9,592 nucleotides of DNA, taken from the NCBI GenBank assembly GCA_913040875.1, contig CAJWHX010000102.1:1-9592 (forward strand). The letters run 5' to 3'. Below the pieces are notes generated by a model, which had not been told where the DNA came from, ran no database searches, and saw nothing but the letters and a program-made list of their open reading frames with translations. This DNA is from an uncultured Pseudomonadota bacterium. Its GTDB lineage: Bacteria; Myxococcota; UBA796. Below are positions 1-8,934 of this stretch, one piece after another. The position numbers were made by a program, and so were the translations under genes. Position 1 is the first letter of the stretch. Each line of letters starts with the position of its first letter.

Positions 1-607
1 TGGCGGACCCCCTTGGGTCCCTCTGAGCGCCACTTGGGTAGTCACCAGACCGGTCGTGGCACCATTCCCACACGTTGCCCAACATGTCGTAGAGCCCAAA
101 GGTGTTGGGTTTCTTCTTCCCGACTGGGTGGGTCTTGTCGCCACTGTTGCCATCGTACCAGGCCACAGCGTCCAGTTTGCCGTAGCGCGCACCTTTGGTG
201 CCGCCGCGGGCCGCGTACTCCCACTCGGCCTCTGTCGGTAGGCGACCACCTTTCCATTTGCAGTAAGCGTCAGCTTCATACCACGTTACCGCGACGACTG
301 GGTGCTCATCTCCTCGGCCGGCACGTCTATGGGTTGCTCCAGCTCCGTCAGCGTTTTCTGTTCGCCATCGTAAGCCTGGAGTACTCCAATAAGTGTTGTC
401 ATTCCATCCGTCCGCCACAAATTGTTCAAAGGCCTGAATGCTCACTTCTGTGAGATCTATTTTGTATGGAGAGAGGGTGACAACGTGTGCGGGAGTTTCA
501 TCAGGAGTATTCCCGGATCCCATTGTAAACTTGCTTTCCCCAAAGGATGCAGTGGTATCGGCGTTTGCTGATGACATAAGTGTGGTAAATAAAGTTAAGA
601 ACATCAT
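1..607 (-). CDS. Exported FGE-sulfatase (SUMF1) domain protein, C-terminus beyond left edge
   Basis: About 202 codons are visible on the minus strand. The chosen ATG is the first of two consecutive ATGs (607-605). It starts a signal peptide ending in an AxA-type site (SANA, residues 13-16), so the product is probably periplasmic or secreted. From residue 22 the SUMF1 fold is clear: FTMGSGNTPDETPAH, then YKIDLTEVSIQAFEQF, HPVVAVTWYEADAYC, KGGRLPTEAEWEYAARGG and NTFGLYDMLGNVWEWCHD. Family members include formylglycine-generating enzymes that mature sulfatases, and also many non-FGE proteins (PvdO-type, EgtB-type). The paired catalytic cysteines of true FGE lie further C-terminal and are off the window, so activity cannot be judged. 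No good Shine-Dalgarno precedes the ATG. An in-frame TTG at 652-650 would give a longer signal peptide with Lys and Arg. The first 360 bases (domain core) are about 62% G+C, but 361-600 (N-terminal part) is about 45%. Confidence 0.9.
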   Translation of the reverse strand, partial: MMFLTLFTTLMSSANADTTASFGESKFTMGSGNTPDETPAHVVTLSPYKIDLTEVSIQAFEQFVADGWNDNTYWSTPGLRWRTENADGAGATHRRAGRGDEHPVVAVTWYEADAYCKWKGGRLPTEAEWEYAARGGTKGARYGKLDAVAWYDGNSGDKTHPVGKKKPNTFGLYDMLGNVWEWCHDRSGDYPSGAQRDPRGSA

Positions 608-815
608 GTATATTCTATAACCGATGCAAATTTTAGAAAAAATATTATTCAAATTGTCCGAACATAAATACTTCCATCGTTTGTATATATGCAACAGCAG
701 ATTGTGGTGATTTATGGTCAACTTGCCGCCACATAAAACAAAGGGCTAAATCGACAGTAACGTTGGTTTTCTTTTGTGGACTGTTGTACACTATCTATCA
801 CAAGAGGAACATGAC
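608..815. promoter_or_regulatory. Divergent AT-rich intergenic region with presumed back-to-back promoters
   Basis: This 208-nt stretch separates the minus-strand SUMF1-domain gene from the plus-strand AAA+ operon, so promoters for both should lie here. For the minus gene the best sigma70-like pair I see is CGGACA (660-655) and TAAAAT (635-630), with a long 19-nt spacer. For the plus operon a weak pair is TTGCCG (723-728) and CTAAAT (746-751), with a 17-nt spacer. Neither is convincing alone. The Shine-Dalgarno AGAGGA at 803-808, 7 nt before the ATG at 816, decides the start of the AAA+ gene. No RNA gene or further reading frame is evident. Confidence 0.35.
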
Positions 816-2249
816 ATGGCACAAGATACAACGGAACACAGTAAAAGAAGGTCTGGTACAAAGAAGTCTCCCTATCGAGGTCAAAAAACGATTCATCACA
901 ATGTACTTCGTGCTCTTGGGGTTGTTGGTTGGGAGCATTTAGAAGGGCCTATTTTGGCGGCGCTCGTCACAGAATCTCCGATTTTATTGATTGGAGAACA
1001 TGGAACAGCCAAGTCTATGGTCCTCGAGAGACTGGCAGTAGCATTGGGGGTGACCTTTCGTCACTACAACGCCAGTATTTTGAATTTTGATGATCTAATT
1101 GGCTTTCCGGCTCCAGATGCTGAGGCTGGACGCGTACGATATTTACGTTCAGAATTAGATGCATGGGATGCAGAGGCCATATTTGTGGATGAGATTTCAC
1201 GATGTCGTCCGGATATGCAGAATCGATTGTTTCCACTGATTTACGATCGCAAGCTGCAAGGTGCTGCACTCACAAAATTGAAGTATCGATGGTCTGCTAT
1301 GAATCCACCACCATCAGAGGATGATCCCAATGCCTATTTTGGTTCCTTTGAGTTGGACGCGGCCTTTGCTGACCGATATGACTGGATACTTCGAGTCCCT
1401 ACCAATTTAAGTGCCGACAGCCGTTTGCACATCATCAAGGGAACAACGGTAGAGGAAAATGCGGCTGAACGTCTACATGAGGCGATGCGCATTACCAGAT
1501 CCAAGCTGCACTTGATAGAAGAAATTCATGGTGACAATATTGCGCGATTTTTTGAGAGTTTGTTCATGATTTTGCAGCGCAGACAGTTTGGTGTTTCATA
1601 TCGCCGAATTCGGATGATGTACAAGAATTCGATCGCACTGATTGCAACCGGGTACTATGAGAATATATCGGATGCGCTTTATCGTGCCGTACTGTACAGT
1701 ATGCCGCAAAACACCAATCAGGAGATCAAAGGTTCTCATATTCAACCGTTGATCGGGTTGGCACTCAAGATCCAGTCCATTCCTGTGAATGATATCCGAA
1801 AGCAGCTGCTAGAAGAAACGGATGAGATTAAGCGGGTCGTACTTGCCTTGCAGTCGAAACAACAAGATTTGATCACCGCAACGGTATTGGACTCCTATGC
1901 TTCATTAAAACCAGCGGAGCGTGTGGGGTTGTCGGCACAGCTATTTCCAATCTTAATGGAGTATCACCCAGAGACACCTGCGATTGTATTGATGCAGTTG
2001 GCCGATGATGTGTCTAAAATCCAATCGTTGCAGGCGCACACAGCCCTCATACCAACGCACTCAGAAAAGTACAGGATTGCCCAAAAAATTGTGTCTTCAG
2101 CAGCAATGTTGCGAACAGATCAGGCGTGGATTGAAGATGTTCTATGGGTTGGGTTTGAGCACAGACTGATTGAAACCATTGAAGAAGTGATCAATACTGC
2201 CAGATTTTGTCGTAAGATTATAGGTCTGCTGGCCCCGTTGAAGAAATGA
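816..2249 (+). CDS. MoxR-type AAA+ ATPase
   Basis: This is a 477-aa cytoplasmic ATPase. The Lys/Arg-rich N-terminal tail (residues 1-24) looks disordered. The AAA+ core follows: Walker A GEHGTAKS (60-67), a DDLIGFPAP segment (92-100), Walker B AIFVDE (121-126), sensor-1 Asn163 in SAMNPP, and a likely arginine finger Arg187 in FADRYD. A lid-like SYRRIRMMYKNSIALIATG segment follows, then roughly 150 residues of mainly helical, family-specific C-terminus. MoxR ATPases work with VWA-domain partners as chaperones that remodel or load metal or cofactor into client complexes. The VWA partner here is two genes downstream. ATG 816 is preferred to an in-frame TTG at 774 because AGAGGA sits 7 nt before it. 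The gene is first in a co-directional set; 53 nt separate it from the next gene. The client is unknown. Confidence 0.92.
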   Translation: MAQDTTEHSKRRSGTKKSPYRGQKTIHHNVLRALGVVGWEHLEGPILAALVTESPILLIGEHGTAKSMVLERLAVALGVTFRHYNASILNFDDLIGFPAPDAEAGRVRYLRSELDAWDAEAIFVDEISRCRPDMQNRLFPLIYDRKLQGAALTKLKYRWSAMNPPPSEDDPNAYFGSFELDAAFADRYDWILRVPTNLSADSRLHIIKGTTVEENAAERLHEAMRITRSKLHLIEEIHGDNIARFFESLFMILQRRQFGVSYRRIRMMYKNSIALIATGYYENISDALYRAVLYSMPQNTNQEIKGSHIQPLIGLALKIQSIPVNDIRKQLLEETDEIKRVVLALQSKQQDLITATVLDSYASLKPAERVGLSAQLFPILMEYHPETPAIVLMQLADDVSKIQSLQAHTALIPTHSEKYRIAQKIVSSAAMLRTDQAWIEDVLWVGFEHRLIETIEEVINTARFCRKIIGLLAPLKK

Positions 2250-2302
2250 ATGGGGTGTGGCGGTGTATGGATCACAAGATTGAACGAAACGAGGGGATGT
2301 AA

Positions 2303-2743
2303 ATGATAGAAAAGGGACAAGCATGGCACAACATGAGTGCACCTCCGCGATCTCAGATTCAAGTCGCTCCCAATCGAAAAGGGGGCGCTGTGGTTCGGAT
2401 AGCTGTTCCCGGTGTTTTACAACAAAGTTTGGATTGGAAACAGTACATCATGGACTTTTGTGAAGTGGACACATGGGACAATTTGATTCAATATGCCAAT
2501 GATGCTCTACCAAAGGTTCCTCCATTGCCGCCATTTTTTGTGATGGGCGCCACAAAAATGAAAGCTGAGTACCAACTCGATCCTTTGGTGACGGTTGCAT
2601 TGCTCGCTAGAACAGCTCAAAATTTGTGTTTACTGAATGCCAAGCCCATGTATACGTTCGAGCGACTTAGACAAGGACGAATGCTGAATGATCAGAGAGT
2701 GATACGGCACCTCACCCTATTTCACATTGAGAGGGACATATGA
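2303..2743 (+). CDS. Uncharacterised 146-aa protein of the AAA+/VWA operon
   Basis: I do not recognise this family. The ATG is well supported by GAGGGG at 2291-2296, 6 nt upstream. The stop overlaps the next start as ATGA (2740-2743), so it is probably translationally coupled to the metallopeptidase-VWA gene. The protein is soluble, with no signal peptide or membrane segment. It has a short basic N-terminal segment (PRSQIQVAPNRKGGAVVRIA), an acidic/aromatic middle (DFCEVDTWDNLIQYANDALP), a proline cluster (KVPPLPPFFVMG) and a helical C-terminal half. Its two Cys residues show no metal-site pattern. Because it sits between the ATPase and its presumed VWA partner, I infer an adaptor or client-recognition role. 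Nothing in the sequence proves this. Confidence 0.8.
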   Translation: MIEKGQAWHNMSAPPRSQIQVAPNRKGGAVVRIAVPGVLQQSLDWKQYIMDFCEVDTWDNLIQYANDALPKVPPLPPFFVMGATKMKAEYQLDPLVTVALLARTAQNLCLLNAKPMYTFERLRQGRMLNDQRVIRHLTLFHIERDI

Positions 2744-4131
2744 GCGTATTGAATCGAATCCACAATCTGATCGCTGCGATGCCATATGGTCTTGAGAAGA
2801 TGATATCACTGATGGATATAGAAGAGTCCACAGATGTGAAAACCGCTTGTGTACCAATAGGGGGGCGACCGAAGATCGTCTTGAATCCCGAATATGTCAA
2901 AGAACATTGCGAGACAGACGAGAAACTATATATGCTGATTCAGCATGAACTCCACCACGTACTGTTGGGGCATACGAGACTCTTTAAACGAAGCACTCCG
3001 CAGCACAACATCGCTTTTGATGCGATCATCAATGCCATGCTCTGTAGAGCCAAACCCGAACCAGAATGGACGGCACTCTTTCGAGACAGTTATGCCCATG
3101 ACAAGTTTCCAGAGTGCTTACTTAGACCCCCTGAAAATTTTCCAAACAAGCCAATATTTCCAGAGGGGATGCCGGAGAATGTATGCGCAGTGATTGAATC
3201 CATTTATTACAGTCAATCGGGTACCTTCTTTGATGTCTACGCACTGCTGGTGAAAGTGGTACAAGTGACCATCCCAAAAGACATGGATGCAGAAACCATC
3301 GCAAAACTCTTTGGGAATGGTTCTTTTGGACTCTCGCCAGACTCGGATTTGGTGGCAGATCTATTGGGGAATCACGATGAAGACGCACGAGGATTGGACA
3401 GTCAAGATGACCCAGATTTGTTTGATATAGTCCGCCAAATTGTTGAAGAATGGCCACAGCCACCCACTCCGATAGCAGGTCGTTCACTCAACGATGTGTT
3501 GAAAGATCGAATTGTCAAAAGAGTGGATGTATCAAGACTGATCGTTCGTCAGATGACCGATGCTGTATTGAGTGCAGTGGTCTCTAGAGGGAAAGAGAAG
3601 GGTGGAATATGGGATATTGAATACGAACGCTACCAGCAATTCTTACCAGTCCGTGACCGACGTGCGTTTGCGATGCAACAAGTTGGCGGACTGGTCCCCA
3701 TGTATGTAGCTGAAATTCCCAAGGAGATCTTTTCACGCAACGAAGTGGCGGTATATGTAGATGTGTCTGGCTCTATGGGAGAGTACCCCAATTATTTGAT
3801 TCGTGCTTTGCAAGCCGTACAGCGTAGAGTGAATGTACGAACGTTTGTATTTTCCACTGTTGTAGAAGAAGTCCTCCTAGAAAATGTCGATCGACCATCG
3901 TACCATACCACCGGTGGAACTAGTGGTCTAGTCGTGTGGCGACACATTAGGGAGAATGAGTTTAAATCTGTGGTCGTTCTAACAGATGGCTATGTCGGAA
4001 AGGTGGAACCAGAGTTTCGAGACATGAAAAAAACCGCGAATATTCAATTTTTAATCACACCAGATGGGTGGAAAGAGGATGTGAAGTCCATTTCAAGACG
4101 AAGTCAGATATTGAGAAGTTCTGTAAGTTAA
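2740..4131 (+). CDS. Fused putative zinc metallopeptidase / VWA-domain protein
   Basis: This 463-aa protein resembles the 'predicted metal-dependent peptidase' group (DUF2201-type N-terminal domain plus VWA-like C-terminal domain). The N-terminal domain has HELHHVLLGH (69-78), giving HExxH with a further His78, then NIAFDAIINAML (90-101), the downstream D...N element seen in these families. A linker (about 180-250) is acidic and Gly/Asp-rich. The VWA domain has MIDAS elements DVSGS (341-345), Thr394 in TGGTSG and Asp416 in VVLTDG, so Mg2+-dependent ligand binding looks intact. No signal peptide or membrane segment is visible, so it is cytoplasmic. GAGG at 2731-2734 and the ATGA overlap support the start. 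VWA proteins of this kind partner with MoxR ATPases, as the operon suggests. Proteolytic activity is inferred from the motif only; the metal site could instead be structural. Confidence 0.9.
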   Translation: MSVLNRIHNLIAAMPYGLEKMISLMDIEESTDVKTACVPIGGRPKIVLNPEYVKEHCETDEKLYMLIQHELHHVLLGHTRLFKRSTPQHNIAFDAIINAMLCRAKPEPEWTALFRDSYAHDKFPECLLRPPENFPNKPIFPEGMPENVCAVIESIYYSQSGTFFDVYALLVKVVQVTIPKDMDAETIAKLFGNGSFGLSPDSDLVADLLGNHDEDARGLDSQDDPDLFDIVRQIVEEWPQPPTPIAGRSLNDVLKDRIVKRVDVSRLIVRQMTDAVLSAVVSRGKEKGGIWDIEYERYQQFLPVRDRRAFAMQQVGGLVPMYVAEIPKEIFSRNEVAVYVDVSGSMGEYPNYLIRALQAVQRRVNVRTFVFSTVVEEVLLENVDRPSYHTTGGTSGLVVWRHIRENEFKSVVVLTDGYVGKVEPEFRDMKKTANIQFLITPDGWKEDVKSISRRSQILRSSVS

Positions 4132-4164
4132 ATAACTGATTTTAAATACTATTTTGGAGAAAGT

Positions 4165-5271
4165 ATGAGTAATAATATTTCTGTTTATGTACCCAATCGT
4201 CAAATCGCAGAGTTCATCTTGCCTGGTCATCCAGACAAATTGTGCGATCGAATAGCGGATCGATTGGTGGATGAAGCGTGTGCGAGAGACGTCAAATCTT
4301 TGGTTGGGGTTGAAGTGGCTTTGCATCAGCAAGTTGTCCTGGTCACAGGTTGTATCACCACTGTTCCAGCGATGACTCCATCAGAGGTCGATGCTATCGT
4401 GCGCCAAGTGTTTAGAGATGCTGGTTATGATGAATCTTGGTTGGCTGCGGACTCTTTGCGGATTGATCACGATCTTCGATTGGAGCTGCTCGATGATGAT
4501 TTGCGAGGGCTGAGAAGCATTTCAGACGATCAGGCTATCTGTGTTGGGTATGCCGGTGGTGCTGCTGAAGATCGATATTTACCCAAGGCTCATCGATTGG
4601 CCTATTTGGCCGGTCAGCACATGCTCGCCATTCGTCATCAATATGGGTTGGGACCCGATGGGAAAGTGATCGTAACTTGCGATGGAGAAGAGATTGAACA
4701 AGTGTCCATTTCATTGCATCACCATTCCGATAGCGATCGTCGCGACATCTTCAGAATGGCCTGGGAAGTGGCTCAGTACATTGGTCTTACAGATCCCAAT
4801 AAACTTACCGTGAATGGCGGTGGGGATTTTGATGTGGGGGGCCCATGGGGAGACAATGGACTCTCTGGAAAGAAACTTGTTGTGGATGCCTATGGCCCGC
4901 ACATCAGTATTGGTGGTGGTGCTTGGTCAGGAAAAGACCCTCATAAAATAGATCGTGTGGGTGGTTTGATGGCTCGATATCTAGCACTCTACGCAATCAG
5001 AATGGGGCTTGGTAACGAAGCGCGAGTCACCTTAGGTTGGCACCCAGGTGATGCATCACCATCCTACACCCTTCTAGAAGTGGACGGACAGATTCGGAAA
5101 TGGGGACTTTTGGGACCCGTAGATTGCTCGATTGATGGTGTGTGGTCATTCTTTCGATTGGGTGAAGTGAATTTTGCAGACTATGCGGATGGTTCTTGGT
5201 TCCAGCGTTCCTCACCGTGGGATGTTTTGAATCGAAGCGATAGGATTGAACAGGTGGAACAGAACTCTTGA
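4165..5271 (+). CDS. Divergent S-adenosylmethionine synthetase (MetK) homologue
   Basis: The protein has 368 aa, against about 384 for E. coli MetK. Shared blocks are PGHPDKLCDRIADRLVDEA (20-38), the VEVAL...LVTGCITT strand pair (49-66), DDQAICVGYA (121-130), VGGPWGDNGLSGKKLVVDAYG (224-244) and GGGAWSGKDPHKIDR (250-264). MetK makes S-adenosylmethionine from ATP and methionine. By eye alignment to E. coli, His14, Asp16, Lys17, Glu42, Asp118, Lys165, Asp238, Lys245, Lys265, Lys269 and Asp271 have equivalents here; Arg244 is Lys. Glu55 is replaced by Cys63, and the QSPDI loop with Gln98 is absent; both bind methionine in the E. coli enzyme. It is therefore either a degenerate or altered-substrate paralogue, or a lineage-specific SAM synthetase. 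GGAGA at 4156-4160 sets the start. It lies only 33 nt after the VWA gene, so it is probably in the same operon. Confidence 0.85.
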   Translation: MSNNISVYVPNRQIAEFILPGHPDKLCDRIADRLVDEACARDVKSLVGVEVALHQQVVLVTGCITTVPAMTPSEVDAIVRQVFRDAGYDESWLAADSLRIDHDLRLELLDDDLRGLRSISDDQAICVGYAGGAAEDRYLPKAHRLAYLAGQHMLAIRHQYGLGPDGKVIVTCDGEEIEQVSISLHHHSDSDRRDIFRMAWEVAQYIGLTDPNKLTVNGGGDFDVGGPWGDNGLSGKKLVVDAYGPHISIGGGAWSGKDPHKIDRVGGLMARYLALYAIRMGLGNEARVTLGWHPGDASPSYTLLEVDGQIRKWGLLGPVDCSIDGVWSFFRLGEVNFADYADGSWFQRSSPWDVLNRSDRIEQVEQNS

Positions 5272-5352
5272 TTCGGATGTTTAAGTGTGTTGAACTTGTG
5301 CATTGATCGGTTAGAGTGTGTTGATTTATTCATGAAAACAACTGGAGACACC

Positions 5353-5703
5353 ATGAAATATCTTGTACCAATGATGCTGATGACTGCCTGTGCACCATCA
5401 GAAGACAAATTTGAAGCTGAAACCATTTCCATTACCTGTGAGAAAACTTTTGAATGCACTGCGGAAGAAGACATCGCAGCGGCTCAAGACATGGGCTTTT
5501 GGCCACTTGGAGAAGATGCAGCCGAATGCGTGGAAATTTTAACTGAGAATTCAGAAGACGATTCGGATGATACAGCAGCTACAGGCTTGGTATACAATAA
5601 AGAATATGCCAAAGACTGTTTGGATGCGATGGCAGAGATGTCCTGTGACGACTTCACCAGTGGTTTACCATCTGCTTGTGAAGATGTGTATTCAGAAGAG
5701 TAG
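5353..5703 (+). CDS. Small acidic six-cysteine lipoprotein
   Basis: This 116-aa precursor starts at ATG 5353, chosen because GGAG at 5344-5347 lies 5 nt upstream and the signal peptide begins there (MKYLVPMMLMTAC, lipid Cys13). The mature part is strongly acidic, with a SEDDSDD stretch near residues 67-73, and has six further cysteines: 29, 35, 59, 89, 98 and 109. They are spaced as C-x5-C, then single Cys in an AAECVEIL helix, an AKDCLDAM helix, MSCDDF and SACEDVY. That spacing suggests three disulfides outside the cytoplasm. Small lipoproteins of this style are familiar from Myxococcota-like genomes, but I cannot name a function. It is monocistronic or last in its unit, because a strong terminator follows 20 nt after the stop. 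The in-frame ATG at 5332 (also ahead of 5353) has no comparable ribosome site. Confidence 0.8.
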   Translation: MKYLVPMMLMTACAPSEDKFEAETISITCEKTFECTAEEDIAAAQDMGFWPLGEDAAECVEILTENSEDDSDDTAATGLVYNKEYAKDCLDAMAEMSCDDFTSGLPSACEDVYSEE

Positions 5704-5782: not shown

Positions 5783-5848
5783 CACTTTTAGAATGGAATT
5801 GGTACCCAGCAGTATACAGAACCGATATACTTGAACAGAATGACCATC

Positions 5849-5854
5849 GGAGGA
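5849..5854 (+). promoter_or_regulatory. Ribosome binding site GGAGGA that decides a non-ATG start
   Basis: GGAGGA is the strongest Shine-Dalgarno in this part of the window. It lies inside the reading frame if ATG 5840 or TTG 5831 is used, but correctly ahead of GTG 5858 and TTG 5861. The 4-nt gap from GGAGG to GTG 5858 matches the spacing seen at the genes starting at 4165 and 5353. Confidence 0.65.
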
Positions 5855-5857
5855 CGT

Positions 5858-7366
5858 GTGTTGAGTTTGTGGATGTGGATGGCTTGTGCGGGGCAAGAGG
5901 CAGCAGAAAAGACAGAGGGTAACGAGACGAAGGCTGAACAGGCCCAATCATTGAATTCGTCAGGCTCTGACTCATCAGGTTCTAATTCGTCAGGTTCTAA
6001 TTCGTCAGGTTCTGCTTCGTCAGGTTCTGCTGGGGTAGCATCACAAAATGCGAATTCGGCTCAGAAACAACCAGGGATGACCGGTCCAAACGGAAAGGGG
6101 ATCGGACCCAATACCAACATGGGTCCCAAAGGTCCACCACCAAATATGAAGGGTGGGCAGGTCGCCAATGGTTCCGGCGGTGCGTTTCAAGACCCTTCGG
6201 GATTTCCACCGTTTCATGATTGGAAAGCTCCAGAAGGACCCGCGATCGAACAGTTCGGAGGCTGGAGTAAGCCACTTCAGCTGACTCAAAAGCCAACGGG
6301 TGGATACAGACCACAAATAGCGGTTTCAAACGATGATCTGTACCATGTGGTGTACTATGACCGAACCGATGAGGGAGATATTATCCGACATCGAATGTCT
6401 CGAAATGGAACAAAGTGGAGCCCCGCTCAAAGTTTGGGTCATGACAGCGAGCGCAATTGGGGACCGGATATTATCGTCCGTCCTGACGAGAGTGCAGTTG
6501 TAGTATATGATCACGCGATGCCAGATTTTCGTTCTAGGGGGTATGTGACCACCTTTGACCCAATGGGCGGAGATTGGTCTGAGCCGACTCCACTAACACC
6601 AGACGATGGGGGTGAGATCGGTTCTGGGCACGTTGCCAATGCGACAGGGCAAGACTTGGCCTACATCTTTATAGGAAAGCCACTTGGCGAAAAGTATCGA
6701 TTTCAGGCAAAATGGCGATGGTTCAAAGATGGTGAGTGGTCTGAAGTTCAATCCTTTTCGGACGGAAGTGCAGATGCTTGGCACACGAATGTAGAACGCA
6801 GACCGGATGGAAGTGTGGTTGCGGGCTTTGATATTGGAACCGGTGGTGCGGCAACGACCCTCTATTTTGTCGAAGGGAAAGAAGGAACGTTTGGGGAGCT
6901 TCAGAACATCACGCAGAATGGTGAACCGGGGGAACGACCTCATTTCGCGTTTGCTGAAAATGTAGACTATATAACGTGGTTTCATAAAGAGTCTGGTCAG
7001 CCGAAACACATTTATGTTCGGTCGCACCAAGTAGACTCCAATAAATGGGGAGTTGTTGAAGAACCATCGAAAGGATACGGTGGATTTCACTTTGATCCAG
7101 AGATTGATATCAACAAAGATGGTGTCCTCTGTTTGGTTTGGGGTTGGGATGCTGGACAAGATGCCGAGATGGTGTACAGTCTCAATCGAGGAAACGGATG
7201 GAGTGCTCCGAAGAAGATCGCAGACGTGAATTGGGGTAAGCCCGGATTGGCCTCCTTATCATCAGATTCCAAAGGCAATTTCCACGTGGTTTGGAATCAA
7301 GGTGTGCGTGGCTACAACGAAGTGTATTATTCATCCTTGGCAGCTGATTCGTTGGAGGCGCCATAA
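5858..7366 (+). CDS. Beta-propeller-like lipoprotein with Ser-Gly repeat and Gly/Pro/Asn linker
   Basis: With the GTG start the precursor is 502 aa, with a very short signal peptide and lipid Cys10 (MLSLWMWMAC); TTG 5861 and ATG 5840 are alternatives. Residues 34-58 are five SSGSx repeats. Residues 71-100 are a flexible linker rich in Gly, Pro and Asn (GPNGKGIGPN, MGPKGPPPNM). From about 131 to the end, seven repeats of 51-54 residues each carry a W-S-x-P-type corner: W136, W187, W240, W294, F345 (TFGEL), W397 and W448. These alternate with strands such as DLYHVVYYD and NFHVVWNQG. The pattern is that of a six- or seven-bladed, sialidase/BNR-like propeller, but canonical Asp-boxes and sialidase catalytic residues were not recognised. 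I infer a surface binding or lyase/hydrolase-accessory role. It overlaps the downstream hydrolase gene by one base (TAATG), implying coupled translation. Confidence 0.85.
   Translation: MLSLWMWMACAGQEAAEKTEGNETKAEQAQSLNSSGSDSSGSNSSGSNSSGSASSGSAGVASQNANSAQKQPGMTGPNGKGIGPNTNMGPKGPPPNMKGGQVANGSGGAFQDPSGFPPFHDWKAPEGPAIEQFGGWSKPLQLTQKPTGGYRPQIAVSNDDLYHVVYYDRTDEGDIIRHRMSRNGTKWSPAQSLGHDSERNWGPDIIVRPDESAVVVYDHAMPDFRSRGYVTTFDPMGGDWSEPTPLTPDDGGEIGSGHVANATGQDLAYIFIGKPLGEKYRFQAKWRWFKDGEWSEVQSFSDGSADAWHTNVERRPDGSVVAGFDIGTGGAATTLYFVEGKEGTFGELQNITQNGEPGERPHFAFAENVDYITWFHKESGQPKHIYVRSHQVDSNKWGVVEEPSKGYGGFHFDPEIDINKDGVLCLVWGWDAGQDAEMVYSLNRGNGWSAPKKIADVNWGKPGLASLSSDSKGNFHVVWNQGVRGYNEVYYSSLAADSLEAP
5957..6031 (+). 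repeat. Five tandem 15-bp units encoding SSGSx
   Basis: Five contiguous 15-bp units start at 5957, 5972, 5987, 6002 and 6017. The consensus is TCGTCAGGTTCTRMT, with few differences between units (GGC/GGT, TCA/TCG, last codon GAC, AAT or GCT). Units 4 and 5 are identical. Because the unit is a multiple of three, slippage changes tether length without breaking the frame. It encodes residues 34-58 of the propeller lipoprotein. Confidence 0.95.
7354..7358 (+). promoter_or_regulatory. Ribosome binding site GGAGG within the end of the upstream gene
   Basis: GGAGG lies 7 nt before ATG 7366, inside the last codons of the propeller gene. An in-frame stop at 7345-7347 and no start codon between it and 7366 fix the hydrolase start, so its unusually short signal peptide is real. 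Confidence 0.85.
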
Positions 7367-8934
7367 TGCTTCTCTGGCTTGTGTTAAGCTGTTCAGATGG
7401 TAACCAAGAGGTTCTTCAAGAACAAACGTCTCAGACGCCCAGTCAGGATACTGTACAGAGTCAACCTACCTCTGGTCACCAAGCGAAGTCTCAGTCAAAC
7501 GTACAAGGATCGCCAAATAACGGTGTTGGGCCAAATGGTCAGGTCATCCACAAAGGTCACAGTCCGGGTCCAGGACATTCTCCGAATGGTGGTCCACCGC
7601 AGGGAATGTCTGGTGGAATGAAGCCTGAACCGTTTCATGCAGACGTCACTTTTGAATGGACCCAACCTGAAGCCACTTGGAGTACAGAGAGCAAGTCTGT
7701 CATCTGGATTTCACTGGATACTGTGTATGCAAAGCGAATGTCTGTCTACGGGGGGCCTGCACTCGTACCAAACTTAGAAGACTTTTCAGAGAACGCAGTT
7801 GTTTTTGACCATGCGATTAGCCACTTTCCAGAAACCGCCTTGTCTCACTGGACGATGATGTCTTCTATTCTTCCAGAAGTGCATGGAAATGTTCCAGCCA
7901 ATGGTGGTTCACTGTATACAGGTCCGACCATTGCAGACATCGCCAAAGCGCACGATTATGCCACTGGAGGCTTCATTGGTGGCGTTACGATGACCGATCA
8001 AGCAAGTGGATTTGGCCGCGGTTTTGATGTCTATGACGATCAGTTTACGTTTTCCTTTGAGGATATGTCGCGAGAGGGAAAGGAAGTGACACAGCGTGCA
8101 GTAACTTGGATACAGGCTCAAGGAGAGGGAGAATATGTGGCCTTTGCACACTATTTTGACGCTCACTTTCCATATACCCCAAAAAATAATCTGTACGATC
8201 CCGATTATACCGGTGAAATTGATGGAACGGACGCCGTTCTGAGACCCTATCGAGATGGACAAAAGACGCCTAGTCAGCGAGATGTTCAGCACGTGCTGGC
8301 GCTCTATGATGCTGAGATTACAGAGCTGGACACGAAAATTACTCCGTTGCTAAATATGGCTGATGAAAACACGATAGTGGTTGTCACAGCCGACCACGGG
8401 GAATCCTTTTCTCACGATTACTATTTCAATCATCGTGCTGGATTGTGGGATGAGGTGACGCACGTACCTTTGATTATTGGCGGTGGTGGACTGAAAGGAA
8501 GTAGAGTTTCTCAGCAGATTGGATTGATTGATATCCTGCCCACGGTACTCGATATCGCAAAGCTTCCCAGTGACAAACGGTTTATGGGAACATCCAGAGT
8601 CGATTGGATTTTGGGGGATTCTGATATCCATCCCGAAGCAGTATATTCCATCACAGATCCGTGGATGCCAGGTCCGCAGTTTGCCGTTCGAACAGAAGAA
8701 TACAAGTGGATCGATGGCGTACAGCAAGATTGGGTATACAATTTACAAATAGATCCTGCAGAAGAAACGAATTTGAAGAGTGTCCCCAGTTCGATATCCA
8801 CAGCAAAAGAGACGTACCAAGCGTTGGTGGAGAGTCATGTGAAATGGCAGGTGGTCAGCCCACGAAAGCGTCAAATTTCCGATGAAGAATGCAAACGGTT
8901 GATGGCCTTAGGGTATACGACTTGCATGCAATAG
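7366..8934 (+). CDS. Sulfatase/alkaline-phosphatase-fold lipoprotein with Thr nucleophile
   Basis: The precursor is 522 aa. Lipid Cys9 follows a very short signal peptide (MLLWLVLSC). A Gln/Ser-rich tether and a Gly/Pro/Asn linker (about 49-86) follow. The catalytic domain runs from about 110: VIWISLDTV with metal Asp118, then YGGPALVPNLEDFSENAVVF, the nucleophile block FPETALSHWTMM, PEVHG (170-174), YFDAHFPYTP (His267), VVVTADHGESF (Asp343, His344), FNHRAGLWDEVTHVPLII (His356), YNLQIDPAEETNL and a C-terminal LMALGY typical of the family. In sulfatases the nucleophile is Cys/Ser in C/S-x-P-x-R. Here the aligned residue is Thr157 in T-A-L-S-H, as in sulfatase-like proteins carrying TLPSH and in phosphodiesterase/phosphotransferase members. 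It therefore probably does not depend on formylglycine. The substrate is unknown; phospho- or sulfo-ester cleavage at the cell surface is inferred. Coupled to the propeller gene upstream. Confidence 0.92.
   Translation: MLLWLVLSCSDGNQEVLQEQTSQTPSQDTVQSQPTSGHQAKSQSNVQGSPNNGVGPNGQVIHKGHSPGPGHSPNGGPPQGMSGGMKPEPFHADVTFEWTQPEATWSTESKSVIWISLDTVYAKRMSVYGGPALVPNLEDFSENAVVFDHAISHFPETALSHWTMMSSILPEVHGNVPANGGSLYTGPTIADIAKAHDYATGGFIGGVTMTDQASGFGRGFDVYDDQFTFSFEDMSREGKEVTQRAVTWIQAQGEGEYVAFAHYFDAHFPYTPKNNLYDPDYTGEIDGTDAVLRPYRDGQKTPSQRDVQHVLALYDAEITELDTKITPLLNMADENTIVVVTADHGESFSHDYYFNHRAGLWDEVTHVPLIIGGGGLKGSRVSQQIGLIDILPTVLDIAKLPSDKRFMGTSRVDWILGDSDIHPEAVYSITDPWMPGPQFAVRTEEYKWIDGVQQDWVYNLQIDPAEETNLKSVPSSISTAKETYQALVESHVKWQVVSPRKRQISDEECKRLMALGYTTCMQ

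Follow-up and report, generated by a model that had tools for sequence, protein, structure and literature searches.

On the plus strand of positions 1 to 9,592 of contig CAJWHX010000102.1, from an uncultured bacterium (the window, 9,592 nucleotides (nt) in full), four consecutive open reading frames (ORFs) encode a MoxR-class AAA+ ATPase, a small protein (X), a fusion of a HExxH metallopeptidase-like domain with a VWA domain, and a homologue of the S-adenosylmethionine (SAM) synthetase MetK. Comparison across bacterial genomes indicates, with very high confidence, that these four genes form one conserved, self-contained and co-inherited unit. In the MetK homologue, a paralogue of the canonical enzyme, the methionine side is altered. 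The explanation that we favour, tentatively and at somewhat less than an even chance, is that the unit encodes a MoxR-VWA maturation or remodelling machine that would specifically serve a MetK derivative, itself predicted to use ATP with a changed acceptor. This explanation draws on sequence comparison and on analogy with other MoxR/VWA pairs.

816–2249, plus strand: MoxR-class AAA+ ATPase, 477 amino acids (aa); Pfam AAA_5 at 50.4 bits (E 3e-13, cut-off 22); match to RavA in the PDB weak (E 0.001)
2303–2743, plus strand: X, small, fast-evolving protein without a known family, 146 aa
2740–4131, plus strand: HExxH metallopeptidase-like and VWA fusion, DUF2201-like, 463 aa
4165–5271, plus strand: MetK paralogue with changed methionine side, 368 aa

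Conservation of the four-gene unit

A preliminary description of the window had listed the four ORFs at these coordinates, the coupling of the X and HExxH-VWA genes by an ATGA overlap and the 33-nt spacing between the VWA and MetK genes, all of which were found as described. The MoxR and X genes are separated by 53 nt, and an in-frame TTG is also present upstream of the ATPase ORF, at 774. A consensus scan of the two gaps (2250–2302 and 4132–4164) returned no promoter-like or terminator-like sites on the plus strand.

Gene order and strand are kept in all 21 loci that are fully visible from MoxR to MetK, the window included. In each of these, an ORF occupies the position of X and the ATPase gene is adjoined by a VWA-domain gene. 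The count leaves out L160, L003 and L004, which are cut by contig ends, G819, which lies in two pieces, and L168 (genome G814), which is without MetK; among the 21 units, L169/L170 and L161–L163 are close relatives. Whole genomes were sampled with the VWA protein or a VWA profile as query. Strong VWA matches came from 23 of the sampled genomes, and in 21 of these the MetK homologue lies directly downstream. The two exceptions are G132, in which the contig breaks off within the VWA gene, and G814, which genuinely lacks MetK. Strong matches were found in 10 of 282 genomes from the phylum of G003, 6 of 301 from that of G002, 1 of 296 from that of G005, 5 of 246 from that of G004 (with a further 5 weak matches) and 1 of 248 from the family of G001. 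The unit is rare (1–10 genomes per 246–301 sampled), yet it occurs across distant bacterial groups.

From the MetK side, a search of 289 genomes, from which G314 and G417 (two matches each) were left out, added one further unit (G449). Conversely, when the 282 genomes from the phylum of G003 were searched with the MetK profile at a threshold of E 1e-62, 9 matched, 8 of which were also on the VWA list, and orphan copies of the MetK paralogue were not found at this threshold. In G003, part of a VWA gene lies at the edge of a contig; a contig end accounts for the discrepancy in G132 and a fragmented reading frame for that in G238. In the protein searches, for which the best 120 of 1973 and the best 120 of 2294 matches were compared, 24 of the 55 listed MetK-clade matches share an identical longest-contig size with a VWA match in the best 120 (mean of the shifted control, 0.42); with contigs of at least 3.5 kb, this was the case for 24 of 42. 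When genomes were scanned with the MetK alignment, the list consisted mostly of canonical MetK. The five best loci among the matches listed (L001–L005, named in their records as Xanthobacteraceae, bacterium 'UCB2', Deltaproteobacteria, Planctomycetia and Acidimicrobiia) nevertheless each show VWA homology immediately upstream, truncated by the contig end in L003 and L004.

Furthermore, the VWA, MoxR and MetK distance matrices over 19 loci correlate (r 0.90, 0.90 and 0.80; 0 of 1000 permutations as high), which fits co-inheritance of the three genes, although its weight is lessened by the fact that such a mirror-tree correlation is also expected from plain vertical descent. The preliminary proposal that the four genes belong together is thus borne out: the MetK homologue is conserved in adjacency rather than lying elsewhere in related genomes, it travels with the ATPase, the X-position ORF and the HExxH-VWA gene, and the gaps hold no intervening promoter or terminator candidates on the plus strand.

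The MetK paralogue and the proteins encoded with it

The following motifs and residues were assigned in the translations.

993–1016, plus strand: Walker A GEHGTAKS of the ATPase
2944–2958, plus strand: HELHH (HExxH) of the VWA protein; H69, E70 and H73 invariant in 58 aligned rows
3760–3774, plus strand: DxSxS (DVSGS) of the metal ion-dependent adhesion site (MIDAS), with Thr394 (3919–3921) and Asp416 (3985–3987); invariant in 58 rows
4351–4353, plus strand: Cys63 of the MetK paralogue, replacing canonical Glu55 (human Glu70, contact to the methionine N)
4870–4872, plus strand: Lys236 of the MetK paralogue, replacing canonical Arg244 (human Arg264, triphosphate contact)
5044–5046, plus strand: Pro294 of the MetK paralogue, replacing canonical Ile302; Pro in 74/74 paralogues, Ile in 33/33 canonical MetKs

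The ATPase was confirmed to have intact Walker motifs, with the Walker B-like sequence IFVDE, and the HExxH-VWA protein to carry both HExxH and an intact MIDAS on one chain, as had been noted before. In Pfam, the latter protein barely exceeds the cut-off of VWA_CoxE (27.0 bits against 26.4). Two of its relatives, P0074 and P0082 (35% identity), stem from records named Candidatus Uhrbacteria.

MetK is among the most conserved metabolic enzymes. The homologue in the unit is over the Pfam cut-off for the S-AdoMet_synt N and C domains and under it for the M domain, and it scores 162.8 bits against TIGR01034, below the cut-off of 309.4. The paralogues form a clade of their own (tree support 0.993), separate from 33 canonical MetKs, a comparison set that is mostly alphaproteobacterial. 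A canonical MetK is also present in 11 of the 12 unit-bearing genomes checked (G002–G005, with a partial match in G005, and all seven further genomes; G001 is without it), as well as in all six genomes without the paralogue that were checked alongside. L158 has another MetK-like match (40–966), as strong as those of canonical MetKs (165 bits), approximately 6 kb from the unit. Viral MetKs were considered as relatives of the paralogue and look unrelated, with no VWA or MoxR neighbour in the best 80 loci listed and an Arg at position 244 in 81/81 motif matches.

While the fold of methionine adenosyltransferases (MATs) is retained in the paralogue, two residues that contact methionine are not: Glu55 is kept in 0 of 73 aligned paralogues and Gln98 (human Gln113) in 0 of 72, compared to 33/33 canonical MetKs for each. 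The ATP and triphosphate residues are nearly all kept, the exceptions being Arg244 (Lys in 73/74), Lys17 (Arg in 13/71) and Lys269 (kept in 71/74). Because Glu55 and Gln98 are replaced, we judge it moderately likely that the paralogue uses an acceptor other than free methionine.

Several observations weigh against this assignment and the explanation built on it. The third methionine contact, Asp238, is kept in 74/74 paralogues, and human Gln113Ala MAT is reported to retain 75.6% of SAM production; the paralogue could therefore still synthesize SAM. In L158 and L173, a Gln stands one column off position 98, where an alignment shift could hide Gln98, and the 74 paralogue rows are not independent. 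A loss of the gating loop was rejected as a diagnostic feature, since the loop comprises 24–26 residues in the paralogues and 26–41 in the 33 canonical MetKs, and a length of 26 is shared by 7 of the latter. Finally, L174–L181 and G814 are without MetK, so that the MoxR, middle and VWA genes are not tied to MetK alone.

The same evidence bears on the possibility that the paralogue is a diverged, working SAM synthetase that supplies a nearby or client SAM-dependent step. Retention of the MAT fold and most catalytic residues, the invariant Asp238 and the activity of the human Gln113Ala variant agree with local SAM supply, as does an O-methyltransferase gene next to the unit in L169. However, Glu55 and Gln98 are replaced throughout, a canonical MetK is already available in nearly all genomes checked, and no fifth gene recurs beside the unit beyond close relatives, except for a POT peptide transporter in L162/L163 and L169/L170. 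The transporter genes adjoin the unit in the same direction (L162, 7357–9339; L169, 12446–14194), lie on different sides of it in the two pairs and belong to two distant genome pairs. We therefore consider local SAM supply rather unlikely. Of the adenosyl- or nucleotide-dependent step in the preliminary description, the step as such is plausible, but it is probably not ordinary SAM supply, given a paralogue that stands beside canonical MetK and is changed on its methionine side.

Protein X, possible roles and genomic surroundings

In the explanation that we favour, the paralogue would still open ATP at C5', with release of triphosphate, onto an acceptor other than free methionine. By analogy with other MoxR/VWA pairs, the MoxR hexamer would act on a VWA domain inserted into its pore, while the MIDAS would grip the client and the HExxH domain would supply specificity or cut. 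The genes of MoxR/VWA pairs often adjoin that of the enzyme to be matured, as in norCBQD and cbbLSQO. Since the MetK paralogue is the only other enzyme in the unit, it would be the likeliest client, to be loaded, activated or cleared, an assignment by analogy that we hold with less confidence than the changed acceptor. X would serve as an adaptor, possibly docking on the paralogue with its N-terminal tail (NMSxPPR).

That the paralogue acts as a C5'-adenosyltransferase for a new acceptor, either a protein side chain or a new small signal molecule, and is served or controlled by the MoxR-VWA trio, is possible, if doubtful. If true, this would represent a type of 5'-deoxyadenosyl modification new to biology and spread over several distant groups of bacteria. 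A MetK clade that drops two of three methionine contacts, keeps the ATP chemistry and is accompanied by a remodelling machine at almost every locus seen would point to adenosylation of a new kind or to a new MoxR client. It is worth noting that the unit lends itself well to testing, being a single small operon in which one enzyme carries a defined change and a short tail motif is the candidate partner or substrate.

X has no Pfam family match and diverges fast, and most copies begin with a short tail, which reads NMSxPPR in the window and its relatives.

2327–2353, plus strand: N-terminal tail motif HNMSAPPRS of X

A loose form of the motif, defined after its variants were seen, occurs in 15 of the 21 units with MetK, in 0 of 9 sets without MetK and in 1 of 198 flanking ORFs. 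Two points limit what this says in favour of a link between tail and paralogue: the motif is missing in 6 of the 21 units, and its correlation with MetK is confounded by descent, as a single sister group, represented by five genomes, accounts for eight of the nine MetK-less sets, with three sets from G1333 and two from G1303. G814, the sole MetK-less case inside the family, lacks the motif as well.

The tail could itself be the substrate, with the paralogue adenosylating a Met or other side chain in it and the MoxR and HExxH-VWA proteins unfolding or cutting the modified X. The distribution of the motif would agree with X as substrate, as would the low confidence of the tail in the AlphaFold2 model and the loss of two contacts to free methionine, which would suit a peptide. 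However, the Met is replaced by Tyr in L155 and by Leu in L158 and L163, which makes an obligatory modified Met unlikely and led us to demote peptidyl-Met adenosylation as the main explanation. Moreover, the motif is absent from some units, the whole model of X is poor (mean predicted local distance difference test score 49.2), and the gating loop of the paralogue is no shorter than in some canonical MetKs. Altogether, modification of X appears highly improbable.

Apart from that of G814, the sets without MetK were found through weak VWA matches (99–136 bits) and comprise MoxR, a longer middle protein and a VWA protein. L174–L181, from the phylum of G004, combine MoxR and the long middle protein with a DUF2201-like VWA protein, with three VWA places in G1333; in L181, MoxR was not found by profile. 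These three-gene sets look like a sister group of the unit. A comparison of X with the long middle protein gave an hhalign probability of 0.4, and homology is not claimed.

A role in anti-phage defence or another conflict, in which the unit would sense infection and a MetK-derived nucleotide product would act as signal or effector, could account for the sparse and wide distribution, and three single cases fit it. In G002 (L182, 1526–17647), the four genes have phage terminase/portal genes on one side and an endolysin gene on the other, all on one strand, with a type I restriction enzyme fragment nearby. The viral contig L194 (1388–4232) carries genes for MoxR and X (with NNMSTPPKS) and a truncated VWA gene, without MetK, and has phage tail genes approximately 3 kb further on the opposite strand. 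In L173, an integrase gene lies upstream. However, PADLOC component models matched none of the four unit proteins at E 0.1. In the same genomes, 120 flank ORFs matched 59 PADLOC families and 105 control ORFs matched 18 (families, not proteins, were counted), but a single flank ORF in L172 alone matches 30, so that this coarse test does not show defence-island enrichment. The flank set comprised 120 of 124 ORFs, four of more than 1100 aa being left out; the control set excluded ORFs of more than 1000 aa as well as 11 canonical-MetK loci, and two of its 14 stretches yielded no ORF. Searches of plasmids (two VWA queries) and phages (one) gave no match at the limits used. The suggested link to conflict systems thus stays tentative, and we regard a defence role as improbable.

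Within the window, the unit is flanked by genes for an FGE-sulfatase-type protein (2–721, minus strand) and a sulfatase (7366–8934, plus strand). A small protein encoded immediately after the unit (5287–5703) shows a weak, below-cut-off likeness to the LA_2478 family (E 3.3e-6). The products of 5831–7366 and 7366–8934 contain Gly/Pro-rich stretches with GPNG near the N-terminus, the former also an SGS repeat run.

Comparison with known systems

The literature titles, abstracts and passages searched, which included PMC6850014 and PMC7271947 and mostly did not cover subscription papers, contained no prior description of the four-gene unit. Among known systems, the MoxR ternary conflict systems described by Kaur et al. 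2020 (PMC7159879) share MoxR and VWA genes in one operon, whereas the ATPase of the window stays under the cut-off of the bpMoxR model (PF20030; 22 against 27 bits). In that paper, 'SAM synthetase' and 'AdoMet' do not occur, and all five occurrences of 'S-adenosylmethionine' are in references. The DUF2201 metallopeptidase-VWA proteins (PF13203) resemble the HExxH-VWA protein in combining both domains in one chain beside a MoxR gene; the window protein falls barely under the DUF2201_N cut-off (21.0 against 23.2 bits), while some of its relatives carry a precomputed PF13203 match. From canonical MetK, the window paralogue differs in its low TIGR01034 score and in the replacement of Glu55, Gln98, Ile302 and Arg244.

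With the MoxR/VWA pairs NorQ/NorD, CbbQ/CbbO and RavA/ViaA, the unit shares a MoxR-class AAA+ ATPase that adjoins a VWA protein with intact MIDAS. Plugging of the pore by the VWA domain and remodelling of a client may be shared as well: the VWA domain of NorD reaches into the pore of NorQ with a finger, and a linker is remodelled so that metal can be inserted (PMC13036017), while for the MIDAS, binding to an acidic patch on the client has been proposed (PMC9976466). Unlike these pairs, the unit has an N-terminal HExxH domain on its VWA protein, the additional protein X and a MetK-derived, near-constant fourth gene. The unit can thus be classed with the MoxR/VWA systems, as a variant whose near-constant partner is a MetK paralogue.

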